Below are positions 33,170-58,652 of a stretch of DNA of 64,000 nucleotides, one piece after another. The number at the start of each line of letters is the position of its first letter. Position 1 is the stretch's first letter. A program made the translations under genes and the position numbers. The notes beneath the pieces were generated by a model. It saw nothing but the letters and a program-made list of their open reading frames with translations. It was not told the DNA's origin and made no database searches. This stretch comes from Streptomyces sp. NBC_01717 (GTDB lineage: Bacteria > Actinomycetota > Actinomycetes > Streptomycetales > Streptomycetaceae): assembly GCF_036248255.1 (NCBI RefSeq), contig NZ_CP109178.1, positions 5,394,001 through 5,458,000 of the forward strand, read 5' to 3'.

Positions 33170-33383
33170 CCGAGGCTTGCGCAGGGGTGCGTCATGAAGT
33201 CCACGCGATGACCCGGCCTGCAGGCAACGAGACGCGACTGCCGTCAAATGATGCCGTGGGCTCCGATGCGCGTCGGACGGCAGCTTCCGAAGCCGACCGA
33301 CATCGGATGTCGGCCAAAGTACTCGGGCGGAGTTGAGTACTTGCGCCCTGGTCGGCCATGGTACGAGCCGGAACGCTCGGGCC

Positions 33384-33788
33384 ATGCGACAACGACTACT
33401 GAATCTGGTTCCCCAGCTGTTGGCGGTCCTCGTGCTGGCTGTGCTGGCGCCAGCGGTGTGGGCTGCCTGGCTGGGCTGGGACCAGCATCGTGACGTGCAC
33501 CCTGACGGTTCGACGACCGGCCCGTACGAGGCGTGGCAGGTGATCGGGCTGGTGCTCACTCTGCTACCGCTGGTGTACGGGGCGGTATCCCGCCGCTACA
33601 TCGCAGGTGCTGTGCTCGGCATCACGGTCGGCCTGACCATTGCCGCCTATTACGACTGGTCTGACGACTCCAGCGGCCTCTTCATGGTCGGCGTGGGGAT
33701 GGTCATGGTGGGGAGCCTCGTCGTGACCGCCGTCGTATCCGTCGTGATCGCCTCTGTGAAACGAGAAGGCTCTCCGAGTCGCCGTTGA
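33384..33788 (+). CDS. Small polytopic membrane protein
   Basis: This is a 134-residue protein with four predicted transmembrane segments (LLAVLVLAVLAPAVWAAWLG; WQVIGLVLTLLPLVYGAV; YIAGAVLGITVGLTIAAY; FMVGVGMVMVGSLVVTAVV). No family is recognised. The ATG at 33384 lies before the first helix. A short palindrome (CCGACATCGGATGTCGG, 33297-33313) sits ~70 bp upstream and may be regulatory. It is the first gene of the island. Confidence 0.6.
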   Translation: MRQRLLNLVPQLLAVLVLAVLAPAVWAAWLGWDQHRDVHPDGSTTGPYEAWQVIGLVLTLLPLVYGAVSRRYIAGAVLGITVGLTIAAYYDWSDDSSGLFMVGVGMVMVGSLVVTAVVSVVIASVKREGSPSRR

Positions 33789-34014
33789 TGGCTCAGTCAA
33801 GCGCCGGCGCGAGGGCCTTGGAGAACCAGTTCGGAAGATCCCGTATCGCGAACGGCAACTCCCAAATCGAGGGATCCGGTTCCATGCCCTGCCTTCTCGA
33901 TGTAGTTGCGCGACGTTGCTCCGGCGACGGCGCGTGTGCCGAACCTGGCGGTTCCTCAACGCGCCGGCATTATGCGCCTCTTCGCCACGTCCTCCAGCAG
34001 GAGGTACCCGTACC

Positions 34015-34172
34015 CGCCTCCGTGTCGTCCGGCTGCACGATGCCCGGCAGGGCCGCGCGACGCTCCTCCAGGGCTCACCGCGGCTGGGGGCGCACGCCCC
34101 ACGTCGTGATGGAGATCCTCGGGCACATTCGGATCAGCATCACCGTGGACGTCTACGCGCACGTCGTCCACG
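34015..34172 (+). pseudogene. Tyrosine integrase fragment (oldest element), first piece
   Basis: This stretch aligns with codons near the 3' end of the intact integrase gene. LRVVRLHDARQ corresponds to LRVVRLHDARH, and VVMEILGHIRISITVDVYAH to VVMAILGHSQISITMDVYTH. At least one frameshift lies between the two parts. Similarity stops right after the codons for VVH. The remaining tail of this same gene (TQREVISH onward) is found at 37127, nearly 3 kb away. Confidence 0.75.
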
Positions 34173-34174
34173 GT

Positions 34175-34228
34175 TGTGACCTGTGACCTGTGACCTGTGA
34201 CCTGTGACCTGCGACCTGCGACCTGCGG
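34175..34228. repeat. Heptamer tandem repeat at an insertion junction
   Basis: Five copies of TGTGACC are followed by two of TGCGACC and a partial unit. The array begins two bases after integrase similarity ends, at the left junction of the yczR/yczE insertion. Seven-base periodicity does not fit codons, so it is non-coding. Slippage would make copy number variable. Confidence 0.85.
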
Positions 34229-34409
34229 CGATGCGCAAGGCCGCCGCCTCCTGGTCAATTCCCGTGCAACCAGGCTGATGTGTCCCAGTGCTACTAGATC
34301 CATGCCCGGGGGCGGCCCGGCCACTGGGGGACTGCTGGACCCCCGCTCTGCGCGTGCCGTTACAGTGCAATGCTTGTTCGATTCGCCGCGGGGTGGAGGG
34401 GGAGGGGTT

Positions 34410-34871
34410 GTGGGCACACAACTGATGGACAGCGCTGGGGAGTTGGCGAAGATACTGTGGCGGGAACACACCGTGTACCGGGAGCGGTCCGGCGGTGTGG
34501 TCATCCGGAGTGAGCATGTACGGCGGTGGATCAGCCTCGCTCCGGCGGGCGGCCAGGGCGAGGTCCTTGTACGCGCGGGGCGCATCCTGGACGGCGGCAC
34601 CACCGCTCCGGCGCGTTCGGAAGCCGTGGTGCCCCTCTCCGCCGGTACAGGCGTGCTCGCCGCGACCTGCCGTCGCCTGCTCGCCGAGGCGGCGGCCGAT
34701 GTGGCGCCGGTCGCGCCGAGGCGGGCAGCGCCTGGGCGGTCCAAGCAGGCCGGGAAGGCCGCGCGGCCCAAAGGCAGTGGGAAACACACCAGTTTCGGTT
34801 CATGGGTGATCCTCGCCTGCGTCTCCGGTGTGATCGCCCTGTACGTCTACAACTCCGCGATGCACGGCTAA
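34410..34871 (+). CDS. C-terminally anchored hypothetical protein
   Basis: This is a 153-residue protein with one C-terminal transmembrane helix (FGSWVILACVSGVIALYVYN). The N-terminal ~100 residues are soluble, with VVIRSEHVRRWISLAPAGG, and are joined by a Lys/Pro/Ala-rich linker. The GTG at 34410 follows a long purine run (34395-34407). No family is recognised. It lies in the segment that splits the integrase remnant. Confidence 0.6.
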   Translation: MGTQLMDSAGELAKILWREHTVYRERSGGVVIRSEHVRRWISLAPAGGQGEVLVRAGRILDGGTTAPARSEAVVPLSAGTGVLAATCRRLLAEAAADVAPVAPRRAAPGRSKQAGKAARPKGSGKHTSFGSWVILACVSGVIALYVYNSAMHG

Positions 34872-37126: not shown

Positions 37127-37189
37127 ACCCAGCGGGAGGTGATCAGCCACATAGGCCGCCCGCTCAAGCGCCGTCTGCCGGGTGCCTGA
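37127..37189 (+). pseudogene. Tyrosine integrase fragment (oldest element), C-terminal tail
   Basis: The frame reads TQREVISHIGRPLKRRLPGA and a stop. The intact integrase at 57357 ends TQREAISHMDRLLKRRPGPE. It continues the fragment that stops at 34172. As in the intact element, the stop lies 30 bp before a tRNA-derived repeat (37219). Confidence 0.8.
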
Positions 37190-37218
37190 GGCACAACTGC
37201 CGTCAAATGGTGCCGTCA

Positions 37219-37294
37219 AAAGGCCCCGGACCGTGATCCGTCCGGGGCCTTTTGCCTGGTGCCCCCGGCAGGATTCCAACCTGCGACCCCGCTT
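37219..37294. repeat. Degenerate tRNA-Arg attachment repeat C
   Basis: This stretch matches the terminator and 3' half of tRNA-Arg(CCT) at 58539-58616, with a handful of substitutions (for example GATTCC for GATTCG in the T-arm). The tRNA 5' half is absent, so it is an element end and not a tRNA gene. The surrounding 37067-37433 has no other gene. Confidence 0.85.
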
Positions 37295-37433
37295 CAGGGG
37301 CGAGGTGGGGCGAGTTGGGCCCTGGCCTGCGGCAGGACGATTTCGGTGGATGCTGACTGCTGTCGCTACCAGCCACCGCAGTTCCCCGTGGATCCCCGCC
37401 CGATCTGGCGCGGTCGTGGCACGTCGTACCTCC

Positions 37434-38098: not shown

Positions 38099-38146
38099 AG
38101 GCATGGCAGGATGTCACGCAGTGGTCGCCGCTCTGGCGGGCCGCTT

Positions 38147-38537
38147 GCCGCTCCCGGCGATGTGCATCCCGCCGCTGCGCTGGCATCGGATGCGCCAGGC
38201 GGCCGCGAAGCAGCGTGCGGCGGAGTCCTGGGAGGAGAACGGCCACGTCTTCACCACCCGCACCGGTCGCCCGGTCGAGCCGCGCAACGTGTACCGCTCC
38301 TTCACCCGCGTCGCCGACTCCGCCGGCCTCCGCGTCGTCCGGCTGCACGATGCCCGGCACGGCTGCGCGACGCTCCTCACCGCGGCCGGGGTCGCGCCCC
38401 GTGTCGTGATGGAGATCCTCGGGCACAGCCAGATGAGCATCACCATGGACGTCTACACGCACGTCGTCCACGACACGCAGCGCGAGGCCATCAGCCACAT
38501 GGACCGGCTGCTCAAGAGACGCCCAGGCCCTGAGTGA
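38147..38537 (+). pseudogene. Truncated tyrosine integrase (middle element)
   Basis: The stretch is about 98% identical to the last third of the intact integrase gene (58118-58508), ending in the same ...GPE and stop. Visible differences include GCGG/GGGG at 38219, ATGGAG/ATGGCG and CAGATG/CAGATC near the GHS motif. The HxxR (HDAR), GHS and DVYTH catalytic parts survive, but the N-terminal two thirds are absent. An open frame from 38103 fuses ~15 unrelated residues to it. Confidence 0.88.
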
Positions 38538-39361
38538 GGTTTTCTCAGGGAGAAGAGCCTCCGGCACGCCTGGGTCAGCTGGTCTACACGCGGGCGGCAG
38601 AGAGGTTGTCGAGAATCGCCGAGACCGTCTCGTCCGGTGTCTGCTCCGAGGTGTCCAGCCAGAGTCCGATGCGCGGGGTCTCCTTGCGTAGGGCGTGGTC
38701 GAGAGCCTCGACCGTCCAGAGGCCGTACCCGGTCTTCGGGCGCATCACTTCTCTGGTTTGCACGGCTGCGGCGGAGGGAGCCAGCACGATGACGTACAAC
38801 GGGCGTGTACGCACCCTGGCAACATACTGGGGCAGGTCTTTCCCCAGGACGATGTCCTGGACGACCGCAGTCCATCCGTGGCGCGCGTACTCGTCGGCCA
38901 CGAGCGCGGACAGCCGGTAGCGCAGTTCCAGTTGGGCCCTGGCCTCGACGGTCTCCTCGGGCAGCAGTTCCTCCCGGCCGGAGACCATCATTCGTCGGAA
39001 GACGTCGCCTCGCACGTGAGTGGCCCGGTGCAGCTGCCCGGCCAGAAGGTCGGCCACGGTGGACTTCCCCGCCGCCATCACACCGGTGATCAGGACGACT
39101 GCGGAACCCAGTTCGGTGTCCACGCGGACCTTTCGCTCACAGATGGCCTGTAGATGCGTGAGCCCCAATTCGGAGGCAAGCGTGAGGCCCTTGGTAGGAC
39201 AGGTCTCACCACAAGATCATGTCTGCTGAAACCAGAGGCTTCACGGTGGTCACCTATGGTGCCACGCTCGATGTCCCGTGCCACGTGGTGCGGCGATATA
39301 GCCCGCGCCGCACTCGTCCTCAACGGAGTATGGAAGTGACCGCGGTTGAGGAAACCTCACT
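38533..39361. mobile_element. Inverted-repeat-bounded cassette inserted at an integrase 3' end
   Basis: AGTGAGGTTTTCTCA (38533-38547) is matched at 14 of 15 positions by the reverse complement of 39347-39361. The segment carries one P-loop kinase-like gene and no recombinase. In the intact element the integrase stop is 30 bp from the attachment repeat. Here the same stop (38537) and the same pre-attachment sequence (39361 onward) are pushed 850 bp apart, so this is a precise insertion. Confidence 0.65.
38584..39123 (-). CDS. P-loop kinase-like protein (phosphotransferase type)
   Basis: This 179-residue protein has a Walker A motif in VVLITGVMAAGKSTVADLLA. HVRGDVFRRMMVSGREELLP resembles the nucleoside/antibiotic phosphotransferase group (chloramphenicol phosphotransferase-like). 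Further markers are WTAVVQDIVLGKDLPQYV and LYVIVLAPS. The GTG at 39123 is preferred to an in-frame TTG further upstream because it begins the domain. It is the only gene of the inverted-repeat cassette. Its substrate is unknown. Resistance or self-protection is possible. Confidence 0.75.
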   Translation of the reverse strand: MDTELGSAVVLITGVMAAGKSTVADLLAGQLHRATHVRGDVFRRMMVSGREELLPEETVEARAQLELRYRLSALVADEYARHGWTAVVQDIVLGKDLPQYVARVRTRPLYVIVLAPSAAAVQTREVMRPKTGYGLWTVEALDHALRKETPRIGLWLDTSEQTPDETVSAILDNLSAARV

Positions 39362-39387
39362 GACCACCCCCGTTGATGTCAAATGTC

Positions 39388-39464
39388 AAAGGCCCCGGAC
39401 CATGATCGGCCCGGGGCCTTTTGCCTGGTGCCCCGGCAGGATTCGAACCTGCGACACCCGCTTT
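39388..39464. repeat. Degenerate tRNA-Arg attachment repeat B, left end of youngest element
   Basis: This copy differs from 58539-58616 by very few bases, including a C/T in the terminator stem and one missing C in the acceptor region. It ends at CGCTTT, where the intact tRNA continues AGGAGAGCGG and this copy does not. It is preceded by GTTGATGTCA (39372-39381), as in the intact copy. It marks the left attachment end of the ~19-kb element. Confidence 0.88.
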
Positions 39465-39791
39465 GGGAGTTCGACCGCGCCATCTACTCACCCGGGTGCC
39501 GAACCTACGGCACGGTGCAGTGCGGATCCCGGGATGCGATCAAGATCGCTCCGGTTTGCCGGCGTTGCCGTCAGAGACTGCCGTCATGCGACTCGTAGAG
39601 GGCCCGCGTGACGGCTGAGCGGGACGTCGCGCAGGCGCACGGCATACACGACGGCGATCCGCCGAGGCCGGCAGATTCAGGCAACAGCGCCGCGCAACGC
39701 TCACCTGTGCGACACGAAGAGGGAGACGGGCACCCTGAAGGGTGATCCGCCTCCCGAACTACCGGAAGGAGCAGGTGCGCTGCCTACGGCC
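39465..39791. other. Intergenic region with a probable terminator
   Basis: No gene is seen. An imperfect hairpin around 39719-39752 (stems with GGGAGACGGG / CCGCCTCCC and CACCC / GGGTG) lies downstream of the gene at 39792 (minus strand) and could terminate it. The rest is degraded attachment-region DNA. Confidence 0.45.
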
Positions 39792-41066
39792 CTACCTTCC
39801 GGCCCACTTCCCGCTCGTGGCGACCGACTTCAGCTGCTGCATGGTCAGCGCGGGTGTCTGCCGCGTGGCCTTCGCGTTCTGGGATCCGGAGTTGAACGCG
39901 GACACCACGACCCGGAGGCCGTCCGTGCGGATGGTGTCGGCGGTCCACATCACCACGCCCGCACCGCCCTTCTCGCCCGGGCCCTGATGCGTGACGACCT
40001 TCGTCCCGTCCGGCAGCACCTCCGCCCCGGACCCGAACAGCTCCCCCTCCACGTCGGACATGTTCGGCTGCACGTTGATCTGCACCAGGCTCGCGCCCTT
40101 ACCGTCATTCACGACGACGTACGCGTATCCGTCGTCACCGTGCTCGGAGGCCACCTTCGCGGACACGGGCAGCAGCGCCTTGAGCTTTCTCAGGATCGCC
40201 TGGCCGTCCTGCCCCTGCGCCGGCGGCTGCTGTACCGGCTCCGGGGCCGCCTTTCTCAGAGCGTTCATCACGGGCCGCCACGCGTCGGAGGTGACGAGTC
40301 CCTTCAACTGCCCAACGGTGAGCGGGGGTTCGGCCCGTGAAACATCGGCGCCCTTCTCTGCGGGCGCGTTCCACTCGCTGGCATCGACCGTGTAGCCGTC
40401 GGGGGTCACGAGATAGGCGTGCCACCACTTTGTGTCCACGCGCTTGTCAGGGTATTCGTACCCGCGCAACACCATCAGGCGCGAACCGTCGGCAAGCGTC
40501 TCATTGCGGCAGGAGTCGTACGGCACGAAGATCTTGTCGGGGCATTCGAGCTGCTGGACCGCCTGCGTGCCGTCCGGGTCGATGGCGCCGACGCTCACGC
40601 CGATCGCAGCCTTGCCCTTGCCATCGTCGAAGACCAGGTGCGCCGATGGCCCGAACCGGTCGGCCGTGCCACGCCCTGTCTGCCCGCTGACTTTCCCCTC
40701 TGGCAGCAGCCCCTCCAACCTCTCGATCACCTGCTGTGCCGAGAGCTGCGGCCCCTTGCCGGGCGACGACTTCGTCGAAGGGCCGGTCTCCTGCACCTTC
40801 GGCTGCGCGGCCACGCCCGACCTGCCCTGCCCCGAGCTGTCGCCGAACGCCCCTGTGGTGTACGACGCCCCGAACCCCACGACGGCGAGCGCCGCGACGC
40901 TGCCGGTCACGGCCGCGACCCGCCTGCGCCGCAGCCCCCGCCGGCCGCGCGCGACGCCGCCGTCCACCAGGGGGAGCCCCTCCACGGAGAAGTCCTCCCC
41001 GGTGCGGCGTAGCGCGTCACCGAGCCCGCCTTCGAACGGGTCCAGGTCCTCCCGCTTTCCAGACAT
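39792..41066 (-). CDS. Putative anti-sigma-like membrane protein next to an ECF sigma gene
   Basis: This 424-residue protein has a short acidic N-terminus (MSGKREDLDPFEGGLGDALR), an Arg-rich stretch, one transmembrane helix (VAAVTGSVAALAVVGFGASY) and an extracytoplasmic part. That part has two similar halves, each starting with a Leu-rich helix (VIERLEGLLPEGKVSGQTGR and ILRKLKALLPVSAKVASEHG). It lies directly downstream of the ECF sigma gene on the same strand (41 bp). This is the usual place for a regulatory partner, hence the call. There is no zinc (ZAS) motif. The ATG at 41066 is used. Confidence 0.7.
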   Translation of the reverse strand: MSGKREDLDPFEGGLGDALRRTGEDFSVEGLPLVDGGVARGRRGLRRRRVAAVTGSVAALAVVGFGASYTTGAFGDSSGQGRSGVAAQPKVQETGPSTKSSPGKGPQLSAQQVIERLEGLLPEGKVSGQTGRGTADRFGPSAHLVFDDGKGKAAIGVSVGAIDPDGTQAVQQLECPDKIFVPYDSCRNETLADGSRLMVLRGYEYPDKRVDTKWWHAYLVTPDGYTVDASEWNAPAEKGADVSRAEPPLTVGQLKGLVTSDAWRPVMNALRKAAPEPVQQPPAQGQDGQAILRKLKALLPVSAKVASEHGDDGYAYVVVNDGKGASLVQINVQPNMSDVEGELFGSGAEVLPDGTKVVTHQGPGEKGGAGVVMWTADTIRTDGLRVVVSAFNSGSQNAKATRQTPALTMQQLKSVATSGKWAGR

Positions 41067-41107
41067 GCCAAACCACCACCGTTTCTCGTAAAAGTCAGTC
41101 GGGCTGA

Positions 41108-41620
41108 TCAGTGCGCGGCGAACTCTCCGATGTTGTCGCCTAGTTGCACCCTCAGACGGGCGAGTGCACGGGTACTGCGGGTGCGTACGGCTGCGGAGCT
41201 GACGTTGAGGACGTCCGCAGTCTCCGTGACGGACCGGTCCTCCCAGTACCGCAGCACGACCACCGCCCGGTCCTTCGCCGGCAGCTTCCGCAGCGCGTCC
41301 AGGAGCATGAGCCGCAGCGAGGCGTCTCCCTGCGCGGCCGTCTCCGATACCTCGGGAATCTCGTCGCTCGGCCGCTCCCCCGACGAACGCCGCCGCTGGT
41401 GCGCCAGAAAGACACGCACAAGAACGGTCTGCGCGTACGCCGCCGGATTGCCGAGTTTCGACGACCGGCCCCACACCACATACATCCGCCCGAGCGTCTC
41501 CTGCACCAGATCCTCGGCGAGATAGGTGTCGCCGCTGGTCAACAGGCATGCCGAACGAAAGAGATGCCCCATGCGGGCCGCCGCGAACTCCCGGAAGCCG
41601 CTCTCCTGGGACCGTCTCAT
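41108..41620 (-). CDS. ECF RNA polymerase sigma factor, SigE-70 type
   Basis: This is a 170-residue ECF sigma factor. Region 2 is seen in ARMGHLFRSACLLTSGDTYL and AEDLVQETLGRMYVVWG. Region 4 is seen in LRKLPAKDRAVVVLRYWEDR and SVTETADVLNVSSAAVRTRS. The gene is followed by its likely anti-sigma partner. Together they give the element's cargo its own regulon. The start is ATG 41620. The sensed signal is unknown. Confidence 0.93.
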   Translation of the reverse strand: MRRSQESGFREFAAARMGHLFRSACLLTSGDTYLAEDLVQETLGRMYVVWGRSSKLGNPAAYAQTVLVRVFLAHQRRRSSGERPSDEIPEVSETAAQGDASLRLMLLDALRKLPAKDRAVVVLRYWEDRSVTETADVLNVSSAAVRTRSTRALARLRVQLGDNIGEFAAH

Positions 41621-41950: not shown

Positions 41951-42015
41951 ATGATGTCATCCGCCCTAGCCACAGCGGGCTACCGACTTGCATCTGGTGC
42001 GCTCGCTCAGCCGCG

Positions 42016-42122
42016 CATGCCGCCCTGTGTGTCGCGCCGCTGCGTTGGCATCGGCTGCGGCAGCGGGAGACGTTCGCGGCCTCGGGCGTCGCATGGTTCG
42101 AAGCTGGATACATCTTCGTGCG
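42016..42122 (+). pseudogene. Tyrosine integrase fragment, different lineage
   Basis: The frame reads HAALCVAPLRWHRLRQRETF and AASGVAWFEAGYIFV. This aligns with IPPLRWHRMRQAAAKQRAG and SWEENGHVFTT of the intact integrase but is clearly diverged. It sits 27 bp before a tRNA-Ser 3' fragment, so it may come from a tRNA-Ser-specific element. Confidence 0.6.
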
Positions 42123-42148
42123 GCTCTGCCTCAGCTCTAGTCCACGAT

Positions 42149-49946: not shown

Positions 49947-50450
49947 GAGCATCCTCCCCCTTCGCCCCTGGCCGGGAGCTTAGACCTCGGGCTTGTCCCC
50001 ATCACCTCAGCCCACGACTCTCCCCAGCTCCCATCCCGTCCGCCTTCGGCCCACACATCGTGGAGCGGGCGTGGTTCAGGGCGTCAAGGTGGAGCGCGCC
50101 ACTGTACGAACGACCTTGACGCCCTGGGCCGCGACTGCTCGGCTTTGCCTGGGTCGAAGACGGTCGGGATGGGAGCCCACAACGCTCACCACGATCCGGC
50201 CGGCACTCGCGAACGGCGCCCCGACCCATCCCGGAGTCTGAGCGCCCCGCCGGAGGCATGTCCTATGCCTTGCGGTTCCCTTCGGTCAGGCTCTCTCGCT
50301 CTAGTTGCGCGACCGGCGTAGCCGGGGCCCAGAGCGGGGCGGAGACAGGAGCGCAGGGCCCCGGCGGTGAGCCGGGGAGCGCGCGACGAGCGGAGCGAGG
50401 AGCCTTGATGAAGTAGGGAAACTCTTACCGCGCTAGCTCACCGGGAGTGA
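49947..50450. other. Long non-coding region of the element
   Basis: No gene is supported in this 504-bp stretch. A 10-bp perfect stem (GCCGGGGCCC at 50321-50330 with GGGCCCCGGC at 50356-50365) lies in the GC-rich right part and could be a structured RNA, a terminator or a transfer/replication feature. Confidence 0.4.
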
Positions 50451-50858
50451 TCATTCGCCATTCTGGCGGCTACTGGCCCTCTCGGCCTCGATAAAAGACC
50501 GAGCCCGCTTCAACATGGACTGTCGCCAGAGCTGAGGGTCGGAATCGTAGACGGCGCAGTTCGCCTGCCATCGGCTGAACTCATCGCTGATGTCCTTGAT
50601 CGAGCGGCACCAGGCGATGCCCTGTCCATGTCTCGCGAGCCCGGGGTGCTGCGGGTCGACACTCAGGTCAAAACCGTGCAGGTACTGCAGGGCTGTCAGG
50701 ACCAAGGGATCCGGGTAGTCGGTATTACCGGGGCCTTCCACCCAGGGAACGGTCCAGGCATGGGCAGCCTCGCGGCTCAGGTGGCCAAAGATCAGCGACT
50801 TCCAGCGAGCCGATACTTCTTCACGGTTGGGCGGCGGAAGCGCATTGAAGTCGTTCAC
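50451..50858 (-). CDS. Hypothetical protein of the element
   Basis: This is a 135-residue soluble protein starting at GTG 50858. It has FGHLSREAAHAWTVPWVEGP and ALQYLHGFDLSVDPQHPGLA, and an Arg/Glu-rich C-terminus. The family is not recognised. It lies at the edge of the AICE core and is transcribed away from the transfer genes. Confidence 0.6.
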   Translation of the reverse strand: MNDFNALPPPNREEVSARWKSLIFGHLSREAAHAWTVPWVEGPGNTDYPDPLVLTALQYLHGFDLSVDPQHPGLARHGQGIAWCRSIKDISDEFSRWQANCAVYDSDPQLWRQSMLKRARSFIEAERASSRQNGE

Positions 50859-50937
50859 GCCCCGAGCGTCCCAGCGAGGTAAGCGCCGAAGCCACTGACT
50901 TTTCTGCTCGTGGGCATCGTTCGGTGCGGCTGTACGG

Positions 50938-51393
50938 TCACCGCGCCGTCGTTAGTCGGTGGCCATCGTGGCTCCTGACATGTGGTCCTGCCCCGTCCAG
51001 TGCATCGAGCAGCCGGATCGCGTAGACCTCCGCCATCCGCTCGGTGACCTCTTCCGAAGTGAGCCAGTCAACTGCCGTCGATTCCGCGGAGGTTCGCTCG
51101 GTGCCACCTGACGGCTTGCAGCGGAACACCAGGGCGACGATGCCGCGCGTCGTGTTCTTGTAGACCCCTGTGAGCTCGTCGACCTCGACCCGGATGCCAG
51201 TTTCTTCCCAGACCTCTCGGGCCACGCCATCCTCGGGGGCCTCGGTAAGTTCGAGGACTCCGCCCGGAAGCTCCCAAGTCCCGTTGTCCGCTCGGCGGAT
51301 CGCCAGCAGTCGCCCGTCCTCGCGCACCACTGCTCCCGCTACCGACACGGAGTGCAGTGGCGTTGACTGGGTCTCGCGGGCGCTGTTACTCAT
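50938..51393 (-). CDS. NUDIX hydrolase, Pif-like
   Basis: This 151-residue protein carries the full Nudix box (GGVLELTEAPEDGVAREVWE, then ETGI; G-x5-E-x7-REUxEExGU). It is divergent from the KorSA-like repressor gene and shares its operator (51388-51403). In pSAM2 the pif gene encodes a Nudix protein that prevents redundant transfer and is repressed by KorSA. Family and position support the same role here (inference). The start at 51393 has no clear ribosome site, so the transcript may be leaderless. Confidence 0.85.
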   Translation of the reverse strand: MSNSARETQSTPLHSVSVAGAVVREDGRLLAIRRADNGTWELPGGVLELTEAPEDGVAREVWEETGIRVEVDELTGVYKNTTRGIVALVFRCKPSGGTERTSAESTAVDWLTSEEVTERMAEVYAIRLLDALDGAGPHVRSHDGHRLTTAR

Positions 51394-51403
51394 ATACAGG
51401 AGC
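51388..51403. promoter_or_regulatory. GntR (KorSA-like) operator 1
   Basis: ACTCATATACAGGAGC lies between the divergent NUDIX and GntR genes, overlapping the NUDIX start. It matches the operators at 52255 and 52291 (consensus ACTCATRTACAKGAGT). Confidence 0.7.
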
Positions 51404-51423
51404 ATAGGAGAGTGAGAAGGACT

Positions 51424-52203
51424 ATGGGAACAGCGGTAGGAGGTGGCAGGGCCGTACCTCGATACGTTCAGATCGCCGACGAGATCATTCAGCAGATCCG
51501 GGCTAGTGTCCTCAAGCCTGGTGACATGGTGCCGAGCGAATCCGAGCTGGTCGAGCGCTACGGCGTCTCCGGCGGGACGATCCGCAAAGCAATGGTGGAG
51601 GTCCGGGCCAGCGGCTTGGTGGACACCCGCCACGGCAAGGGCTCGATGGTGAAGGACCGACCGCCTGTCCGGCTGCGTTCCTCGGACCGCTTCCGGGCCT
51701 CGCATCGTCGGGGCGGCAAGGCCGCGTATCTCGCCGAGTCGGCGCAGTCCGGTGCCACGGCCAAGGTGAGCGTCCTCTACATCGGCCCCATGGAGGCCCC
51801 CGAAGACATCGCCAAGCGTCTCGATGTTCCGGCCGGCACTCAGGTCCTCGCCCGGCGGCGCCTCTACTTCCGTAATGGCGTGCCGGTGGAGACGGCCACC
51901 TCGTACCTGCCGTGGGATGTGGTCAAGGACATCCCCGAATTGTTCGCCGAGAACCCCGGTCCTGGCGGTATCTATGCCCGCCTGGAGGACGACGGCCACA
52001 CCTTCGCCGAGTTCGTCGAGACGCTGCAAGCGCGCCCGGCCGCCAAGGCCGAGGCATCCGAACTGGCGCTGAGCTCCGGCGCACCTGTCGTTCACCTCCT
52101 CCGCGACGCGATCACCGACGCCGGGCGTGTGGTGGAGGTCTGCGACACCCTCATGGCCGCTGACCAGTTCGTTTTCGAGTACCGCATCCCCGCGTCCGAC
52201 TGA
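51424..52203 (+). CDS. GntR-family repressor with UTRA domain (KorSA-like)
   Basis: This is a 259-residue regulator. The GntR winged helix is clear (YVQIADEIIQQIRASVLKPG, then VPSESELVERYGVSGGTIRK). The UTRA effector domain follows (VPAGTQVLARRRLYFRNGVP and ETATSYLPWDVVKDIPELF). In pSAM2 KorSA represses pra and pif and keeps the element integrated. This gene has the same place. Three matching palindromes flank it. GAGAAGG precedes ATG 51424. Its C-terminus reads FVFEYRIPASD. Confidence 0.9.
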   Translation: MGTAVGGGRAVPRYVQIADEIIQQIRASVLKPGDMVPSESELVERYGVSGGTIRKAMVEVRASGLVDTRHGKGSMVKDRPPVRLRSSDRFRASHRRGGKAAYLAESAQSGATAKVSVLYIGPMEAPEDIAKRLDVPAGTQVLARRRLYFRNGVPVETATSYLPWDVVKDIPELFAENPGPGGIYARLEDDGHTFAEFVETLQARPAAKAEASELALSSGAPVVHLLRDAITDAGRVVEVCDTLMAADQFVFEYRIPASD

Positions 52204-52254
52204 CGCCCGCTCAACTGCCCTCAACCCGCCGGGACTTCTTCGCCTCGGCGGGTT

Positions 52255-52308
52255 GACTCATGTACAGGAGTCATGCACTCTTCTTCATGTCACTCATATA
52301 CATGAGTG
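52255..52308. promoter_or_regulatory. GntR operators 2 and 3
   Basis: GACTCATGTACAGGAGTC (52255-52272) and CACTCATATACATGAGTG (52291-52308) are near-perfect palindromes of the same type as the site at 51388. Their starts are 36 bp apart. They lie in the promoter of the SCO3933-like gene and the transfer/replication operon, which they probably repress. Confidence 0.75.
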
Positions 52309-52341
52309 ATGGAGTTCAGCACTTCTAGAGGAGTGATCTCT

Positions 52342-52686
52342 GTGCGTCAGATTCCCGTCGACACCTCCGCCGCATCCGTGATGGTGGCCCAGTCTCCGCA
52401 GCCGAAGATCAAGGACCGCCGCACCGGTGAGGTCGCCACCGACACCGAGACCGGGGGCACGCTGATGACCGTGAGCGTGATGTTCGCGGCCAACGACACC
52501 GTGGAGCTCCTGCCCGTGACCGTCCCGGAAACCGGCATCTCCGGCGACCTGGCGATGGGCACCCCGGTAGCACTCACCGGCCTGATCGCCCGGCCGTGGG
52601 AGCGAGATGGTCGCCATGGCATCGCCTTTCGCGCCGTCGCCGTCACCTCGCTGACAGCCGGTGCCACGAAGCCCAAGGCGGCCTGA
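52342..52686 (+). CDS. SCO3933-family regulatory protein of AICEs
   Basis: This 114-residue protein starts VRQIPVDTSAASVMVAQSPQ and then PKIKDRRTGEVATDTETGGT. It has a beta-rich middle (VSVMFAANDTVELLPVTVPE) typical of the small protein that opens AICE operons. It resembles a single-strand-binding-like fold, but its function is not established. GTG 52342 is chosen, with AGAGGAG upstream. It is first in a tightly spaced operon with the TraB-type gene (2 bp gap). Confidence 0.8.
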   Translation: MRQIPVDTSAASVMVAQSPQPKIKDRRTGEVATDTETGGTLMTVSVMFAANDTVELLPVTVPETGISGDLAMGTPVALTGLIARPWERDGRHGIAFRAVAVTSLTAGATKPKAA

Positions 52687-52688
52687 TC

Positions 52689-54047
52689 ATGTCGTGGCTG
52701 ACCGTCCTGCTGGTCCTGGTTGTCGTCACCGCGGGTCTCCTGCGGTGGCGGCGCCCCGCCTGGTACTGGCTGACTTTCGGCGTCGCCCTGGCCACGCTGC
52801 GCGTTCTGATTCGCTACGGGTCGGTCATGGACGCCTGCGGGCTGACCGTTCCTCCGTCCCGGTGGCGGATCGCCGTCGCCCGGATGGCCAACCGGCCCGC
52901 TCCCGAGTCTCGTGCGCCGCGCATCCTGCGGGTTCGGCCGACTCGGACCGGCCTGGTCTTACGGCTGGGGCTCCGCCCTGGTCAGGACGCGTTCGACGTG
53001 GCCGCGTCCTGCGACCGATTGCGGCACTCGTTCGCGATGTACGGCGTCACCTCGCGGGAGATCCGCTCGGGTGTCGTCGAGTTGCGGATGACCGGTTACG
53101 ACATCCTCAAGCGTGTGCAGATGCCCGCAAGGGTGTCCACTGCTCCGATGCGTGTTCCGGTCGCTCTGCGCGAGGACGGCGCCGTGCACTACCGCGACTA
53201 CCGCACCACTCCGCACGCTCTGACGCTCGGCGCCACGAAGTCGGGCAAGTCGGTCTACCAGCGCAACCTGGTAGCTGAACTCGCCTCGCAGGACGTTGCC
53301 TTGGTGGGCATCGACTGCAAGCAGGGTGTGGAGCTGTTCCCGCTGGCCCGCCGGTTCTCCGCGTTGGCGGACAACCCCGACACCGCCGCCGAACTCCTCG
53401 ACGCGCTCGTCTCCCACATGGAAGGCGTCTACCAATTGATCCGTGCTGAACAGCGCATCACCGCCGACGTCCCGGACGCGGAGATAGCCGCCGACATCTG
53501 GGACCTGCCCGACCACCTGCGCCCGACCCCGATCGTCCTCCTGGTCGACGAGGTCGCCGAACTCGCCCTATTCGCCACCAAGGACGAGGAGAAGCGCCGG
53601 GACCGGATCATCACCGCGCTCGCCCGCCTGGCCCAGCTCGGCCGCGCCGCCGGCATCTATCTGGAGATCTGCGGGCAGCGCTTCGGCTCCGAACTTGGCA
53701 AGGGCATCACTATGCTGCGCGCCCAGCTCACCGGACGCACCGCACACCGCGTCAACGACGAGACCTCCGCCAACATGGCCTTCGGCGACATCGCCCCGGA
53801 CGCTGTCCTGGCCGCGATCAGCATCCCGACCGAGACGCCCGGCCTCGCCGTCACCGGAGACTCGTCCGGCGGCTGGGCCCGTATCCGCACCCCGCACACC
53901 TCGATGCGCCAGGCCGTCAACGCCTGCAACCGGCACGCCCACCGCACCCCGGCCGTGCCCGGCCTCGCCGCCTTCCGGCCCGAGCTGCCCGCTGCGGTCT
54001 CGCTGGTCAAGATCCCGGCCCAGGCCGAGGCACCAGCCTCCGTCTGA
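52689..54047 (+). CDS. FtsK/SpoIIIE-type DNA translocase (TraB/TraSA-like)
   Basis: This is a 452-residue protein with one or two N-terminal membrane helices (MSWLTVLLVLVVVTAGLLRW). Walker A is LGATKSGKSVYQRN and Walker B is TPIVLLVDEVAELALF, followed by GRAAGIYLEICGQRFGSELG. TraB-type proteins move double-stranded DNA between mycelia and are the only protein needed for Streptomyces conjugation. The ATG at 52689 is 2 bp after the preceding stop. The C-terminal DNA-recognition part is short. Confidence 0.93.
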   Translation: MSWLTVLLVLVVVTAGLLRWRRPAWYWLTFGVALATLRVLIRYGSVMDACGLTVPPSRWRIAVARMANRPAPESRAPRILRVRPTRTGLVLRLGLRPGQDAFDVAASCDRLRHSFAMYGVTSREIRSGVVELRMTGYDILKRVQMPARVSTAPMRVPVALREDGAVHYRDYRTTPHALTLGATKSGKSVYQRNLVAELASQDVALVGIDCKQGVELFPLARRFSALADNPDTAAELLDALVSHMEGVYQLIRAEQRITADVPDAEIAADIWDLPDHLRPTPIVLLVDEVAELALFATKDEEKRRDRIITALARLAQLGRAAGIYLEICGQRFGSELGKGITMLRAQLTGRTAHRVNDETSANMAFGDIAPDAVLAAISIPTETPGLAVTGDSSGGWARIRTPHTSMRQAVNACNRHAHRTPAVPGLAAFRPELPAAVSLVKIPAQAEAPASV

Positions 54048-54135
54048 CCGACCCCGCACCCCGGTCGGCGCGACCGTCTCGCGCCACGCCCCTACCCCCG
54101 CCATGCCCAAAACGCCCCGCAAAGGAGGTGAAGAC

Positions 54136-54798
54136 ATGACCCGCTCTCCCCGCATCGACGCCGTCCTGGTGCAAGCCGTGATCGCCGGGGCCTTGTCCTT
54201 CGCTCACCTGCACGACCTCGCCGCCGCTGCCGGACAGACCGGATGGAAGGCATGGGCCTACCCAGTCAGCGTCGATCTGCTCCTGGTCGCCGCCTGGCGT
54301 CGACTGCGCAATGACGGTCCCTCTCGGCTGGCCTGGTGCTGGTTCCTGATCGCCCTCGTCGCCTCGCTCGGCGCCAACGTCGCCACCGCCGGGTTCCTCG
54401 ACCTGGCCCACCCGCCCGCCTGGCTCCGCTTCGGTATCGCCGGTTGGCCCGCGCTCGCCTTCCTGGGCGGAACTCTCCTCGCCCACTCACCGGCCGTCGG
54501 CGACCACGACTCCGCACCGGAACCCGAGTCGGTCGAGCGTGTGCCGGCCAAACCGGCTCCGGCACCGGAGCCCGTACTCGTCGAGCTGCCGGAGCCTTCA
54601 CCGGCCCTGCCCGTCGCCGAGTCCACTTCCGCCTCGGCGTCAGACGTGCCGGTCCCGGCCGCTCTGGTCGACCACGCCCGCAAGGTCGCCGACGACCACC
54701 GCACCCGTACCGGCGTCCCGATCGACACCGACACCCTGCGCGCCCGCCTCGGAGTCCCCGCCCCAATGGCCGAGGCGATCGCCGCCCAACTCGCCTGA
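54136..54798 (+). CDS. DUF2637 / SpdB-like transfer protein
   Basis: This 220-residue membrane protein has AAAGGAGGTG directly before its ATG, an excellent ribosome site. Four helices are visible (VLVQAVIAGALSFAHLHDLA; WAYPVSVDLLLVAAWRRLRN; WCWFLIALVASLGANVATAG; FGIAGWPALAFLGGTLLAHS). A Pro/Glu-rich linker and a small C-terminal helical domain follow. DUF2637 proteins are constant members of AICEs and are taken to aid intramycelial spread. Confidence 0.88.
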   Translation: MTRSPRIDAVLVQAVIAGALSFAHLHDLAAAAGQTGWKAWAYPVSVDLLLVAAWRRLRNDGPSRLAWCWFLIALVASLGANVATAGFLDLAHPPAWLRFGIAGWPALAFLGGTLLAHSPAVGDHDSAPEPESVERVPAKPAPAPEPVLVELPEPSPALPVAESTSASASDVPVPAALVDHARKVADDHRTRTGVPIDTDTLRARLGVPAPMAEAIAAQLA

Positions 54799-54818
54799 CC
54801 GGAGAGGAGACCGCCGCC

Positions 54819-55013
54819 ATGGCCGCACAAAACCACTTCCACTCAGTGATGCGGATCGGCCCCGTGCAGATCGGCACCCACCGCGACCGGCACGGCCGCA
54901 CCAAGCACGCCGCCGTCTGCACCTCCGACCGCTGCGGCTGGTCCGCCGACTACTCCAGCCAGTCGGCCGCTCAGCTCGCCGCCCGCACCCACCGCTGCCG
55001 CATCACCCACTGA
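54819..55013 (+). CDS. Small mobile-element transfer protein (SpdA-like)
   Basis: This 64-residue protein reads HFHSVMRIGPVQIGTHRDRH and CTSDRCGWSADYSSQSAAQL, with Cys/His residues that may bind zinc. It is typical of the short gene found after the DUF2637 gene in AICEs and named mobile-element transfer protein. It is in operon, with the next start 16 bp downstream. Confidence 0.75.
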   Translation: MAAQNHFHSVMRIGPVQIGTHRDRHGRTKHAAVCTSDRCGWSADYSSQSAAQLAARTHRCRITH

Positions 55014-55028
55014 TCGGAGACCACTGCC

Positions 55029-55184
55029 ATGGACGTCCCGCTCTGGCTCGCCCTGATTGTCGTCGGCGCCCTCGGGATCAAGCTCATCCGCCCGCCCTGG
55101 TGGCTCGTCGCCGTGCTCCTCCTCGGCGGCTTCCTCCTCGCGGACAGCCTGCTCGCGCCGGTCATCGACACCGCCATCAAGTAG
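55029..55184 (+). CDS. Very small membrane protein of the transfer operon (51 aa)
   Basis: ATG 55029 opens 51 codons (MDVPLWLALIVVGALGIKLI, then RPPWWLVAVLLLGGFLLADS) with two membrane helices and a stop at 55182. Codon use and tight spacing on both sides support it. It matches the position of SpdC-like proteins in pSAM2-type elements. Confidence 0.75.
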   Translation: MDVPLWLALIVVGALGIKLIRPPWWLVAVLLLGGFLLADSLLAPVIDTAIK

Positions 55185-55207
55185 CCCACCGCAGAAGGAG
55201 ATCGCTC

Positions 55208-55513
55208 ATGTTCAGTCCGAAGATCCCCACCATGCCGACCCCGACCGGCATCGTCGCCCCGCCCGTCGTCGAGCCGACCACCGTTGTCCAGCACACCCCG
55301 GCCTCCGTCGCCCCGGCGGCACCCGCTCGACCCACCGTCCAGATCACACCCGGCGCCCTGGTCGCCCTCGTCGGGGGCGGTACCGCCGTGGTCCTTGTCG
55401 TCGGCGCCGTCCTGGTCTCGATGCTCCTCGCGGTCGCCATTACCGCGGCCTCCGTCGCCGTGTGCGCGCTTGTCGCTCGCTCGCTGATCGCCTCCGGGAC
55501 GAAGCGCCACTGA
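55208..55513 (+). CDS. SpdD-like membrane protein
   Basis: This is a 101-residue protein with a Pro/Val-rich N-terminus and two membrane helices (ALVALVGGGTAVVLVVGAVL, then VSMLLAVAITAASVAVCALV). AGAAGGAG precedes the ATG. It is in operon with the preceding small genes. SpdD-like proteins are constant in AICEs and aid plasmid spread. Confidence 0.78.
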   Translation: MFSPKIPTMPTPTGIVAPPVVEPTTVVQHTPASVAPAAPARPTVQITPGALVALVGGGTAVVLVVGAVLVSMLLAVAITAASVAVCALVARSLIASGTKRH

Positions 55514-55601
55514 CCGGCCCCCGGGCGGCCTCGATACCGCCAAGCATCCGCCGCCCGGGAGCCGTCTCCGTCCGATCTCTCAACCGGAAGGAACAGCCAT
55601 C

Positions 55602-55796
55602 ATGACCGACCGCTTCACGGACCCTGCACGGGTCTGCTCGAACTGTGACGGCTTCCCCGCCGTCCGCGTCACCCTCGGCGGCCGAGACCGCCACGGAAAC
55701 CTCCGCACGATCACCGTTCGCTGCCCCGCCTGCCACGGCACCGGCACCCGCCCGGCCCGTCGCCCCGCCCCGACACCCGTCGAGGTGAGTGCGTGA
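55602..55796 (+). CDS. Small zinc-finger protein
   Basis: This 64-residue protein carries a CxxC pair near each end (VCSNCDGF and RCPACHGTGTRP), the DnaJ-like CxxCxGxG half. Its stop overlaps the RepSA-like gene start (55793-55796). GGAAGGAA is upstream. A regulatory or structural role beside the replication gene is possible. Confidence 0.75.
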   Translation: MTDRFTDPARVCSNCDGFPAVRVTLGGRDRHGNLRTITVRCPACHGTGTRPARRPAPTPVEVSA

Positions 55797-57172
55797 GCGA
55801 CACCGCCACTCTGGCGGGCCTGGACCCGACCATCTTGGAGGACATCCTCCGGGTGGCCGGGTCCCCCGGCTTCGACCGCTGGAAAGACCAGGTGCACCGC
55901 ACCGGGGGCTGCTCTGACCCGATCCACCTCACCGGCTGGACCCTCGCGAAGGACAAGACCACCGGACAGACCCTGCGCCGCTACTCCACCGACACCGAGC
56001 CCGATGGACGACTCCGCGTAGCCTGCGGCAACCGCCGCGCCTCCCGCTGTCCTTCCTGCGCCTACACCTACGCCGGAGACACCTACCACCTCATCCGCGC
56101 CGGGCTCGCCGGAGACGAGACCAAGGACATCCCCGCCCAAGTCCGGGATCACCCCCGTGTTTTCGCCACCTTCACTGCGCCCTCGTTCGGACCGGTGCAC
56201 AACCGGCCCGACCGTGGCGTCTGCCGCTGCGGCACCCGCCACTCTGAGGACGATCCCGCCCTCGGCACCGCCCTCGACCCGACGACCTACGACTACGCGG
56301 GCACGGTCCTGTTCAACAACCACGCCGGGCAGCTCTGGCAGCGTTTCACCACCCGGCTCCGCCGCGAACTCGCTGCCCGCGCCGGACTCTCACAGCGCGA
56401 GCTGAAAGACGTGCTGCGGGTCTCGTACGGCAAGGTCGCCGAGTTCCAGAAGCGTGGCGCGATTCACTTCCACGCCGTGATCCGCCTCGACGGACCCGAC
56501 GGTCCCGATTCGCCGCCTCCGTCCTGGGCTTCGGCCGATCTGCTTACCGACGCGATCCGAGCCGCGGTCGCCCACTCGTACACCTCGATCACCGTGCCCG
56601 CAGCAGGAGACCAGCCCTGCCGGCCATTCCAGTGGGGCCAACAGCTCGACATCCGCGCCATCCATGCCTTCGGCGACGGCTCCGACATCACCGAGCAGGC
56701 GGTGGCGTCCTACGTGGCGAAGTACGCCACCAAAGCCGCCGAGTCGACCGGCAGCCTCGACCGACGCATCGGGAACCGGGAAGTGCTCGACCTCCTGGAC
56801 GTGCCCGACCACCCGCGACGACTCATCGAGGCCTGCCTCGACCTCGCCCCGCTCTACCCAGACCGCAAACTCGGGGCCTGGGCCCACATGCTCGGCTTCC
56901 GCGGCCACTTCTCCACCAAATCCCGCCGCTACTCCACCACCCTCGGCGCACTCCGCCAGATCCGCGCCGACTACCGCGCCGTCCAGGAGCAAGACGCCCT
57001 CGGCGACCCGGACACCGTGCTCGTCCTCGCCTCCTGGGAGTACGCCGGTCACGGCCACACCCCCGGGGAATCCGCTCTCGCCGCCTCCATCGCCCGCGAC
57101 ATCCAGCTCAACCGCGAAACCGCCCGCGAAGCCCTGCAAGACCAGCTCGCCCTGGAAGGAGCCGCAGCATGA
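55793..57172 (+). CDS. RepSA-like rolling-circle replication initiator
   Basis: This is a 459-residue initiator. Motif 2 (the HUH metal site) is visible in KRGAIHFHAVIRLDG. The candidate nicking Tyr is in ASYVAKYATKAAE. Zinc-finger-like Cys residues occur at SRCPSCAYTYAG and GVCRCGTRH. RepSA makes AICEs able to replicate as rolling-circle plasmids after excision. It overlaps its neighbours by 4 bp each way, giving a coupled repSA-xis-int operon as in pSAM2. Confidence 0.93.
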   Translation: MSDTATLAGLDPTILEDILRVAGSPGFDRWKDQVHRTGGCSDPIHLTGWTLAKDKTTGQTLRRYSTDTEPDGRLRVACGNRRASRCPSCAYTYAGDTYHLIRAGLAGDETKDIPAQVRDHPRVFATFTAPSFGPVHNRPDRGVCRCGTRHSEDDPALGTALDPTTYDYAGTVLFNNHAGQLWQRFTTRLRRELAARAGLSQRELKDVLRVSYGKVAEFQKRGAIHFHAVIRLDGPDGPDSPPPSWASADLLTDAIRAAVAHSYTSITVPAAGDQPCRPFQWGQQLDIRAIHAFGDGSDITEQAVASYVAKYATKAAESTGSLDRRIGNREVLDLLDVPDHPRRLIEACLDLAPLYPDRKLGAWAHMLGFRGHFSTKSRRYSTTLGALRQIRADYRAVQEQDALGDPDTVLVLASWEYAGHGHTPGESALAASIARDIQLNRETAREALQDQLALEGAAA

Positions 57173-57357
57173 CCACCGCCACCGCCGAACTGCTGACCGT
57201 GCCCGAGGTCATGGCGCGGCTCAAGCTCGGACGCTCCACGGTCTACGACCTGATCCGTTCGCGCCGACTGACCTCGATCACCATCGGCCGGTCCCGGCGC
57301 GTACCCGCAGACGCCGTACGGGACTTCATCACCCACGAGATCGAGGAGGCTGCCTGA
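57169..57357 (+). CDS. xis: Excisionase (helix-turn-helix, MerR-like)
   Basis: This 62-residue DNA-binding protein begins LLTVPEVMARLKLGRSTVYD, then LIRSRRLTSITIGRSRRVP, the classic excisionase fold. It directs the integrase toward excision. Its ATG overlaps the stop of the RepSA-like gene, and its stop overlaps the integrase ATG (TGATG at 57355-57359). Confidence 0.93.
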   Translation: MTTATAELLTVPEVMARLKLGRSTVYDLIRSRRLTSITIGRSRRVPADAVRDFITHEIEEAA

Positions 57358-58508
57358 TGGCCGCCCAGCGCAAGCGCAACCCCAACGGCGCGGGCACGAT
57401 CACCAAGCGCAAGGACGGCCGCTATCAGGCTGCCGTCTACGTCCTTCAGCCGGACGGCACCCGTGCCCGCAAGTTCGCCTACGGCAAGACCTGGGCCGAG
57501 TGCGACACCAAGCGCCGCGAACTGCTCGACAAGGTCGACCAGGGCGTGCCCGTGCCGACTCGCTCGGCCCGGCTCTCGGAGTGGCTGCCGTACTGGCTGG
57601 ACAACATCGTCAAGCCCCGGCGCAAACTGAGCACGTACGACAAGTACGAAGCTCACGTGCGGCTCTACCTCGTGCCGGTGCTGGGCTCGAAGCGGCTGGA
57701 ATCCCTCGGCGTCGCCGATGTCCGGCGCTTCATCGTCCAGCTGGAGAACAAGACGACCGCGGCCACCGCCAAAGAGTCTCACCGCGTGCTGCGCACGGCT
57801 CTCAGCGCCGCCTGCCGCGAGGAACTGGTGACCCGTAACGTGGCCGCCCTCGTCGAACCGCCGCGTGCCAAGTCCCGGGAGCTGAGCCCCTGGACACTCG
57901 ACGAGACCCTGGACTTCCTCGCCGCCGCCCGTAAGGACCCGCTGTACGCGGCCTTCGTGCTCGCCATCGCCATGGGCCTTCGCCGGGGCGAGATCGTCGG
58001 TCTCCGCTGGACCGATATCGACCTGGACAACCGCGTGATCTACGTCCGGCAGCAGACCCAGCGACGGCGCGGAGTCCTCTACGACGACGAGACCAAGAAC
58101 CGCCGCCATCGTGCCCTGCCGCTCCCGGCGATGTGCATCCCGCCGCTGCGCTGGCATCGGATGCGCCAGGCGGCCGCGAAGCAGCGTGCGGGGGAGTCCT
58201 GGGAGGAGAACGGCCACGTCTTCACCACCCGCACCGGTCGCCCGGTCGAGCCGCGCAACGTGTACCGCTCCTTCACCCGCGTCGCCGACTCCGCCGGCCT
58301 CCGCGTCGTCCGGCTGCACGATGCCCGGCACGGCTGCGCGACGCTCCTCACCGCGGCCGGGGTCGCGCCCCGTGTCGTGATGGCGATCCTCGGGCACAGC
58401 CAGATCAGCATCACCATGGACGTCTACACGCACGTCGTCCACGACACGCAGCGCGAGGCCATCAGCCACATGGACCGGCTGCTCAAAAGGCGCCCCGGCC
58501 CTGAGTGA
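57357..58508 (+). CDS. int: Tyrosine site-specific integrase of the AICE
   Basis: This is a 383-residue recombinase. The arm-binding and core-binding domains occupy residues 1-170. In the catalytic domain, Arg lies in AMGLRRGEIVGLRW, the HxxR pair in LHDARHGCATLL, then ILGHSQ and the nucleophile Tyr in ITMDVYTHVVH. The stop lies 30 bp from the tRNA-Arg terminator. It integrates the element into the 3' end of tRNA-Arg(CCT), leaving the tRNA intact. Three damaged relatives lie to the left in the island. Confidence 0.96.
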   Translation: MAAQRKRNPNGAGTITKRKDGRYQAAVYVLQPDGTRARKFAYGKTWAECDTKRRELLDKVDQGVPVPTRSARLSEWLPYWLDNIVKPRRKLSTYDKYEAHVRLYLVPVLGSKRLESLGVADVRRFIVQLENKTTAATAKESHRVLRTALSAACREELVTRNVAALVEPPRAKSRELSPWTLDETLDFLAAARKDPLYAAFVLAIAMGLRRGEIVGLRWTDIDLDNRVIYVRQQTQRRRGVLYDDETKNRRHRALPLPAMCIPPLRWHRMRQAAAKQRAGESWEENGHVFTTRTGRPVEPRNVYRSFTRVADSAGLRVVRLHDARHGCATLLTAAGVAPRVVMAILGHSQISITMDVYTHVVHDTQREAISHMDRLLKRRPGPE

Positions 58509-58516
58509 CCGCCCTC

Positions 58517-58539
58517 GTTGATGTCAAAAACTGATGTCA
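58517..58539. repeat. Arm-type repeat next to the intact attachment site
   Basis: GTTGATGTCA (58517-58526) and TGATGTCA (58532-58539) lie in the gap between the integrase stop and the tRNA terminator. The same pair is at 39372, 42577 and 46200, so it probably belongs to attachment-site DNA. Confidence 0.6.
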
Positions 58540-58572
58540 AAGGCCCCGGACCATGATCGGTCCGGGGCCTTT
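58539..58572 (-). terminator. Terminator of tRNA-Arg
   Basis: A perfect 14-bp stem (58539-58552 with 58559-58572) has the loop ATGATC. Read from the tRNA side it ends in a short T-run. It is also part of the duplicated attachment sequence. Confidence 0.88.
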
Positions 58573-58576
58573 TGCC

Positions 58577-58652
58577 TGGTGCCCCCGGCAGGATTCGAAC
58601 CTGCGACACCCGCTTTAGGAGAGCGGTGCTCTATCCCCTGAGCTACGAAGGC
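58577..58652 (-). tRNA. tRNA-Arg (anticodon CCT)
   Basis: On the minus strand the sequence folds into a full cloverleaf. The acceptor GCCTTCG pairs with CGGGGGC (two G-U pairs). The D-arm is TAGCTCAGGGGATAGAGC, the anticodon arm has loop CTCCTAA with stem CCGCT/AGCGG, and the T-arm is CAGGTTCGAATCCTG. ACCA is encoded at the 3' end. It is the host site of the island. The junction lies within its 3' half, which is restored by the element. Confidence 0.95.

Follow-up and report, generated by a model that had tools for sequence, protein, structure and literature searches.

The 64,000-nucleotide stretch of the Streptomyces sp. NBC_01717 genome analysed here (the window) contains a single tRNA gene, that for tRNA-Arg(CCT) as detected by ARAGORN, and to the left of it an intact actinomycete integrative and conjugative element (AICE) and the probable remnants of others (Table 1). 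An Rfam scan of this array found nothing besides the tRNA-Arg. The gene set left of the tRNA is complete and of the pSAM2 type, comprising an open reading frame (ORF) with a NUDIX domain and the genes for Tra, RepSA, Xis and the integrase. In the 46099-58621 region an integrase and an excisionase adjoin the attachment site, and a replication initiator and an FtsK/SpoIIIE-type transfer protein are present; the core at its right end is intact, and its probable left end at 46.1 kb consists of 17 nt of core and a repeat pair. The AICE prototype pSAM2 carries a RepSA-type initiator, an FtsK-type Tra, Xis and a tyrosine integrase in the order tra-rep-xis-int-att, as in the intact element here, and has tRNA-Pro as its target, in contrast to the tRNA-Arg(CCT) of the present locus.

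The tRNA gene and the element ends have a core of 43 bp in common (58579-58621). A 72-nt repeat that includes core sequence was found in three copies, at 37219 (site A), 39388 (site B) and 58539. Against an 84-nt query composed of hairpin and core, site A matched with 93.8% identity (E value of 3.6e-29) and site B with 96.4% (E value of 1.6e-33), far beyond chance, and B keeps 41 of the 43 core positions. The three tRNA-Arg-derived repeats reported in an earlier note, made from the letters of this DNA, are therefore real. The four integrase genes or pieces listed there are real too, but that inventory missed a fourth Arg site (46099-46115), in which GACATCCGCTTTAGGAG is kept and much of the other core sequence is gone, as well as a fifth integrase piece (42022-42120) and two units of tRNA-Ser(TGA) type. 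The start proposed for the array, 33237, falls within a short right-end remnant (33215-33257) that has neither hairpin nor core.

The hairpin between repeat pair and core, AAAGGCCCCGGACC...GGTCCGGGGCCTTT or a variant of it, was found at the tRNA-side end of AICEs at tRNA-Arg(CCT) in five relatives (L numbers denote loci and G numbers genomes). The far, non-tRNA end in L118, L119, L120, L122 and L123 consists of 43-46 nt of the tRNA 3' half alone, without hairpin, so the hairpin belongs to the integrase side of the element. Since A and B carry it, each is a former right end whose element was later pushed away from the tRNA.

The gap between the integrase stop and the hairpin contains two 7-bp repeats offset by 13 bp, and such pairs occur in two classes, GATGTCA (class a) and GCCGTCA (class b). 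From the stop to the repeat copy there are 30 bp in the intact element (class a, 58508/58539), as stated in the earlier note, and 29 bp at site A (class b, 37189/37219), where 30 had been given. This spacing is conserved at the element ends of relatives. Among the best 80 of 220 loci, which served as named relatives, 67 have an exact pair (65 GATGTCA and 2 GCCGTCA), five an imperfect one and eight none, with L244, scored among the last, showing a small defect of a class a pair. At left ends, a matching pair follows GGAGTTCG; the distance is 90-91 bp in 17 of 23 places and 101-103 bp in the other six, three of them class b (101-102 bp) and three class a (102-103 bp). Two of these places lie in the window (39466 and 46112) and 21 elsewhere among the sequences examined; the signature did not occur in 200 shuffles of the window. 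By their position and conservation, the 7-bp pairs are presumably the arm sites of the integrase.

Five integrase genes or pieces were found in the array, including the intact gene at 57357-58508. The three assigned to class a all overlap in residues 315-364 and thus represent three separate genes, to which at least one class b element and at least one class c element must be added, giving a minimum of five elements. The at least three rounds of integration suggested in the earlier note hold as to repeated entry and are an underestimate as to number: the overlapping pieces indicate that at least five elements used the tRNA-Arg site, and six is likelier. In a quick tree of 93 integrases, the class b integrases form a clade of five rows with a support of 100 in the Shimodaira-Hasegawa-like approximate likelihood ratio test (SH-aLRT). 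The L221 row, labelled class b automatically, has a chance GCCGTCA only and falls within class a.

The class of the flanking sequence changes across the internal sites. Junction A joins a class b right end through the core to a left end of a third class, c, and junction B joins a class a right end through the core to a class b left end. The class c left end at A resembles another left end of this genome, at 4.589 Mb (79% identity along 121 nt), and L099 (74% along 135 nt). A 50-nt match to its motif (78%) was found at an equal offset (74 nt) within the left end of the AICE of G218, which is located at a tRNA-Arg(CCT) and has an integrase 28% identical to that of the window.

In both A and B the class switches exactly at the core, as predicted for a new circle entering at the tRNA end, which argues for serial site-specific integration. 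The locus is very probably an accretion array in which AICEs entered a single tRNA-Arg(CCT) gene at its 3' end. The attP (attachment site) of a circular element would recombine with the tRNA core through the element's own tyrosine integrase, which would restore the tRNA 3' half and add the element's downstream hairpin. Because each element rebuilds this 3' half, the tRNA gene would stay whole and reusable as a target. The next element would then enter at the tRNA and displace the earlier one leftward, leaving a chimeric junction made of the integrase side of the old element, the core and the left arm of the new one. The integrases would have acted one after another, with the older elements to the left. 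In such an array the repeated turnover of elements at a single tRNA gene can still be read.

Table 1. Features of the AICE array and its target, in window coordinates
Feature	Position	Strand	Basis
Remnant of a right end: class b spacer, no hairpin, no core	33215-33257	+	88% over 43 nt in L097; 97% over 29 nt in L087
Integrase piece, broken, residues ~315-364, class a by a narrow margin	34018-34177	+	DNA comparison
Integrase C-terminal piece, class b	about 37127-37189	+	90.6% over 64 nt to L087
Class b pair, integrase side of A	37199-37218	+	sequence
Site A: hairpin and Arg core	37219-37300	+	repeat search, hairpin+core query
Class c left end joined at A	37301-37432	+	matches to own genome 4.589 Mb, L099, G218
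Integrase piece, residues 254-383, class a	38145-38537	+	97.7% amino acid identity to intact integrase
Class a repeats, integrase side of B, one intact, one trimmed	39373-39388	+	sequence
Site B: hairpin and Arg core; one C missing, anticodon-loop A changed to G	39388-39469	+	repeat search, hairpin+core query
Class b pair GCCGTCA-N6-GCCGTCA, left end joined at B	39567-39586	+	101 bp from GGAGTTCG; signature at 39466
Integrase piece, residues 258-290, class b by score	42022-42120	+	82.8% DNA identity over 99 nt to L102 (G070 class b integrase)
tRNA-Ser(TGA)-type unit: 3' half, hairpin, flank	42146-42321	+	sequence comparison
Isolated class a repeat pair, no core adjoining	42580-42599	+	sequence
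Intact AICE, probable extent, left end to tRNA core, 12.5 kb	46099-58621	+	class a left-end signature at 46112; size range in relatives
Decayed Arg core GACATCCGCTTTAGGAG, probable left end of intact AICE	46099-46115	+	sequence comparison
Class a pair at 46.1-kb left end, GATGTCA-N6-GATGTCA, second unit one base off first	46203-46222	+	91 bp from GGAGTTCG
Second tRNA-Ser(TGA)-type unit	48844-49013	+	sequence comparison
ORF, NUDIX domain in C-terminal part	50938-52224	minus	PF00293 1.8e-17
FtsK/SpoIIIE-type transfer protein (Tra)	52596-54047	+	PF01580 7.4e-44
Replication initiator RepSA	55793-57172	+	NF041486 6.7e-255, above cutoff
xis-like excisionase	57169-57357	+	TIGR01764 excise 2.2e-11; HTH_17 3.4e-12
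Tyrosine integrase, intact, 383 aa, class a	57357-58508	+	Pfam PF00589 2.5e-26 in enclosing ORF; tree
Class a pair GATGTCA-N6-GATGTCA, integrase side of intact AICE	58520-58539	+	sequence
Hairpin carried by element, between repeat pair and tRNA core	58539-58574	+	inverted repeat; not on far ends of relatives' single AICEs
Intact tRNA-Arg(CCT) gene, integration target	58577-58652	minus	ARAGORN; Rfam RF00005 65 bits

Comparison with relatives showed fewer elements at the corresponding site. The nearest genome by the right flank is G075 (85-87%), where 94 kb contain one AICE of the same type between two cores (79-81% in long pieces) and one hairpin-only match. The repeat copies of the window are not shared with this relative, and the refuting condition of the earlier note, the same three repeats in relatives without the element, was not seen in these 94 kb. 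Several elements of the same specificity at one site, hybrid internal junctions and a relative with fewer elements are found together. The stacked insertion at one tRNA-Arg put forward in that note is supported by the class-switching junctions, the three end classes, the copies absent from the nearest relative and the single AICEs of other relatives.

The intact element would excise by recombination with a left end, and the 46.1-kb site is most likely this end, because its repeat class matches the intact integrase side and the resulting 12.5 kb is within the sizes of single AICEs in relatives, which are ~9-11.5 kb in L118, L119, L120, L122 and L123 and 14-16 kb in L093 and G075. In natural excision the element would thus most likely pair with the decayed 46-kb site and not with B, giving a predicted circle of ~12.5 kb. 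The earlier note had suggested that B may still pair with the intact site; B as the natural partner is not upheld, since the decayed left end of matching repeat class at 46112 lies between the two. The repeat classes thereby predict which segment could still leave (46.1 to 58.6 kb, not B to the tRNA) and which junctions would be dead ends.

Three other explanations were considered. The array may have grown in part because AICE circles recombined homologously with a resident AICE in the genes that they share, a process that also gives tandem elements with attP-like junctions; we regard this as unlikely. It would account for the 38.1-kb integrase piece, which has 98% DNA identity to the intact gene over 392 nt despite the two junctions between them, and for G108, in which a Ser-type integrase remnant, a Ser core and flank are found together within an Arg array, like a captured attP. 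However, recombination within genes would not place the class change exactly at the core, as observed in A and B. Similarly improbable is a single composite element of 19.2 kb extending from B to the tRNA (39388-58621), in which the 46-kb signature would be an internal leftover and B the working left site. The well-kept core of B is in its favour, as is a Frankia AICE, Fean6303, that excises with either of two left sites (PMC3218068), but B has a class b left arm and the intact element a class a integrase side, the site at 46112 offers a left end of class a with the usual 91-bp spacing, and 19.2 kb exceeds all seven AICEs measured in relatives (~9-16 kb). Local duplication of the tRNA 3' end without integration, for which the presence of three direct copies within 22 kb, all oriented alike, might speak, was rejected as scarcely credible, because the copies are flanked by sequence of different element classes, the adjoining integrase pieces are of two classes, and the hairpin moves with the element and not with the tRNA.

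Several observations weigh against serial accretion as described here or against parts of the element count. The evidence for class c is the left end at A, whose motif is not class-defining by itself, as it is also present inside some class a elements, and no class c integrase remains in the window. The 34-kb piece is class a only narrowly (80-81% versus at most 77.8%), one class a gene is 86% identical to the 42-kb piece along a shorter stretch of 50 nt, and the class b pieces at 37.1 and 42.0 kb do not overlap and could be one gene. Much of the core length at 46.1 kb has been lost. As examples of single AICEs, L118, without most of rep, and L123, with an extra hairpin-only match past its far end, are not fully clean. 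Only the element proximal to the tRNA is intact, yet core damage does not rise steadily with distance, and the left boundary of the oldest element was not found.

Decay was rejected as a clock for the array, because the most damaged core (46 kb) is the nearest to the tRNA copy. The ordered divergence of degraded copies proposed in the earlier note fails for the same reason, and the difference between A and B cannot be read as time, since their integrase sides belong to different classes. That classes a and b alternate in the array was noted and not used, the events being too few.

Core copies were counted in 246 genomes with a strict pattern allowing up to three mismatches and no gaps, including cores elsewhere in the genome. 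At least one copy was found in 234 genomes, at least two in 120, at least three in 46 and at least four in 20; a reversed control pattern had no match in these genomes. The counts are lower bounds, because gapped sites such as A, B and that at 46 kb are missed and the genome of the window scores one. With 120 of the 246 genomes having two or more near-exact cores, tRNA-Arg(CCT) is a broad hotspot in the genus. Four extra Arg cores lie to the left of the tRNA in G218. The gene on the left flank (window 31921-32880) was matched in 232 of the 246 genomes, mostly weakly; in G161 (74%) it is the common left neighbour, near the tRNA, with two other decayed left ends ahead of that tRNA.

On the right side of the integrase, the 80 named loci have tRNA-Arg(CCT) within 400 bp in 46 cases, tRNA-Val(TAC) in 16 and tRNA-Thr(TGT) in two; no tRNA was found in the other 16, one of which has less than 400 bp of sequence on that side. 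The Val group forms one clade of 21 rows in the quick tree (SH-aLRT of 100), which includes a second AICE of the same genome as the window at 6.41 Mb. This element (C1 6412145-6423006; L019, L107) has an integrase of the same family and a tRNA-Val-like core, and no tRNA was found in 19.5 kb around its integrase end. Also in this genome, at C1 4586288 and 4589607 (L018), there are two Arg hairpin and core junctions with class c left ends, with no tRNA in the surrounding 16 kb.

AICE accretion at Streptomyces tRNA-Arg genes is already in print (PMC9513070, PMC3218068), and what is added here is the anatomy of the array and the prediction from arm classes. In PMC9513070, one to three elements of three families and an older remnant are described in one Streptomyces tRNA-Arg, with different integrases and direct repeats between them. 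The present locus has in common with those arrays the accretion of AICEs and defective AICEs with different integrases in one tRNA-Arg. It differs in that they have two or three functional elements in a row, whereas the present array has a single intact element, next to the tRNA, and pieces of at least four others. In the available part of PMC9513070 we found neither repeat classes nor chimeric junctions. PMC3218068 describes two tandem AICEs of S. avermitilis, Sav3708 and Sav3728, which occupy a tRNA-Arg and have integrases from different sub-families; like the present locus, its systems include tandem AICEs at one tRNA-Arg and alternative possible left sites for excision. For the Frankia elements, excision has been tested in that work, whereas here it is predicted from sequence. 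The arm-class anatomy was not found in the accessible text of either paper, in a coverage that largely leaves out subscription journals.

The two units of tRNA-Ser(TGA) type have 57-nt cores identical to the tRNA-Ser(TGA) of the host. ARAGORN detected no tRNA-Ser gene in the window, and ordinary insertion into such a gene was rejected, as there is none at 42146 or 48844. Similar units away from any tRNA-Ser gene were found in L113 (9183-9353), in L168 (9512-9685) and at 8591344-8591511 of the genome of the window. In all, 15 of 30 matched loci, the window's own included, have the unit without tRNA-Ser. The flanks ahead of TCTTGAAAACC are mostly dissimilar, yet often end in CGA or CGG, giving CG(A/G)TCTTGAAA, which suggests that the Ser units may have arisen by integration at secondary sites. 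The Ser unit of G108 looks like a captured attP. A second end of the Ser-type element was not identified, as each of 10 further stretches shows one Ser unit only.

A broader proposal, which we offer tentatively and consider rather doubtful, is that integrase classes with unlike arm sites use one tRNA core, and that arm class and spacing (91 bp, or longer by roughly a helical turn) together decide which sites of an array can recombine. Chimeras of the A and B type would then be dead ends, broken elements would be locked in and tRNA loci would turn into graveyards, with the Ser units as a possible second address served by a Ser-type integrase.

Other observations concern sequences within the array. 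Immediately after the 34-kb integrase piece, 7-bp units (CCTGTGA, CCTGCGA) occur in a run (34172-34230). A cassette at 38540-39357 is bounded by GGTTTTCTCA and TGAGGAAACC and contains an ATP-binding kinase-like gene (38587-39168, minus strand). In G016, G043 and G075, ~0.72-0.75 kb separate the two parts of its right half, which suggests that the copy in the window has lost some sequence, perhaps a transposase. A DUF5713 gene (PF18977) at 49018-49617 lies between the inverted ends TAGGGCCTGTTGCGAAAG and CTTTCGCAACAGACCCTA and resembles an insertion-sequence relic.

To the left of the NUDIX ORF, a structured module was found at 50005-50434 (DNA fold z of -5.2). This module lies no more than 3 bp from an integrase gene or piece in L094, L097 and L212, as after a large deletion, and less than 0.75 kb from one in L091, L118, L224, L233 and L234. 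In L212 (S. abyssomicinicus, 7988-11306), a 3.2-kb stretch contains an exact core copy, a partial module, a full-length integrase and a tRNA-Thr, resembling an integrase-only element.

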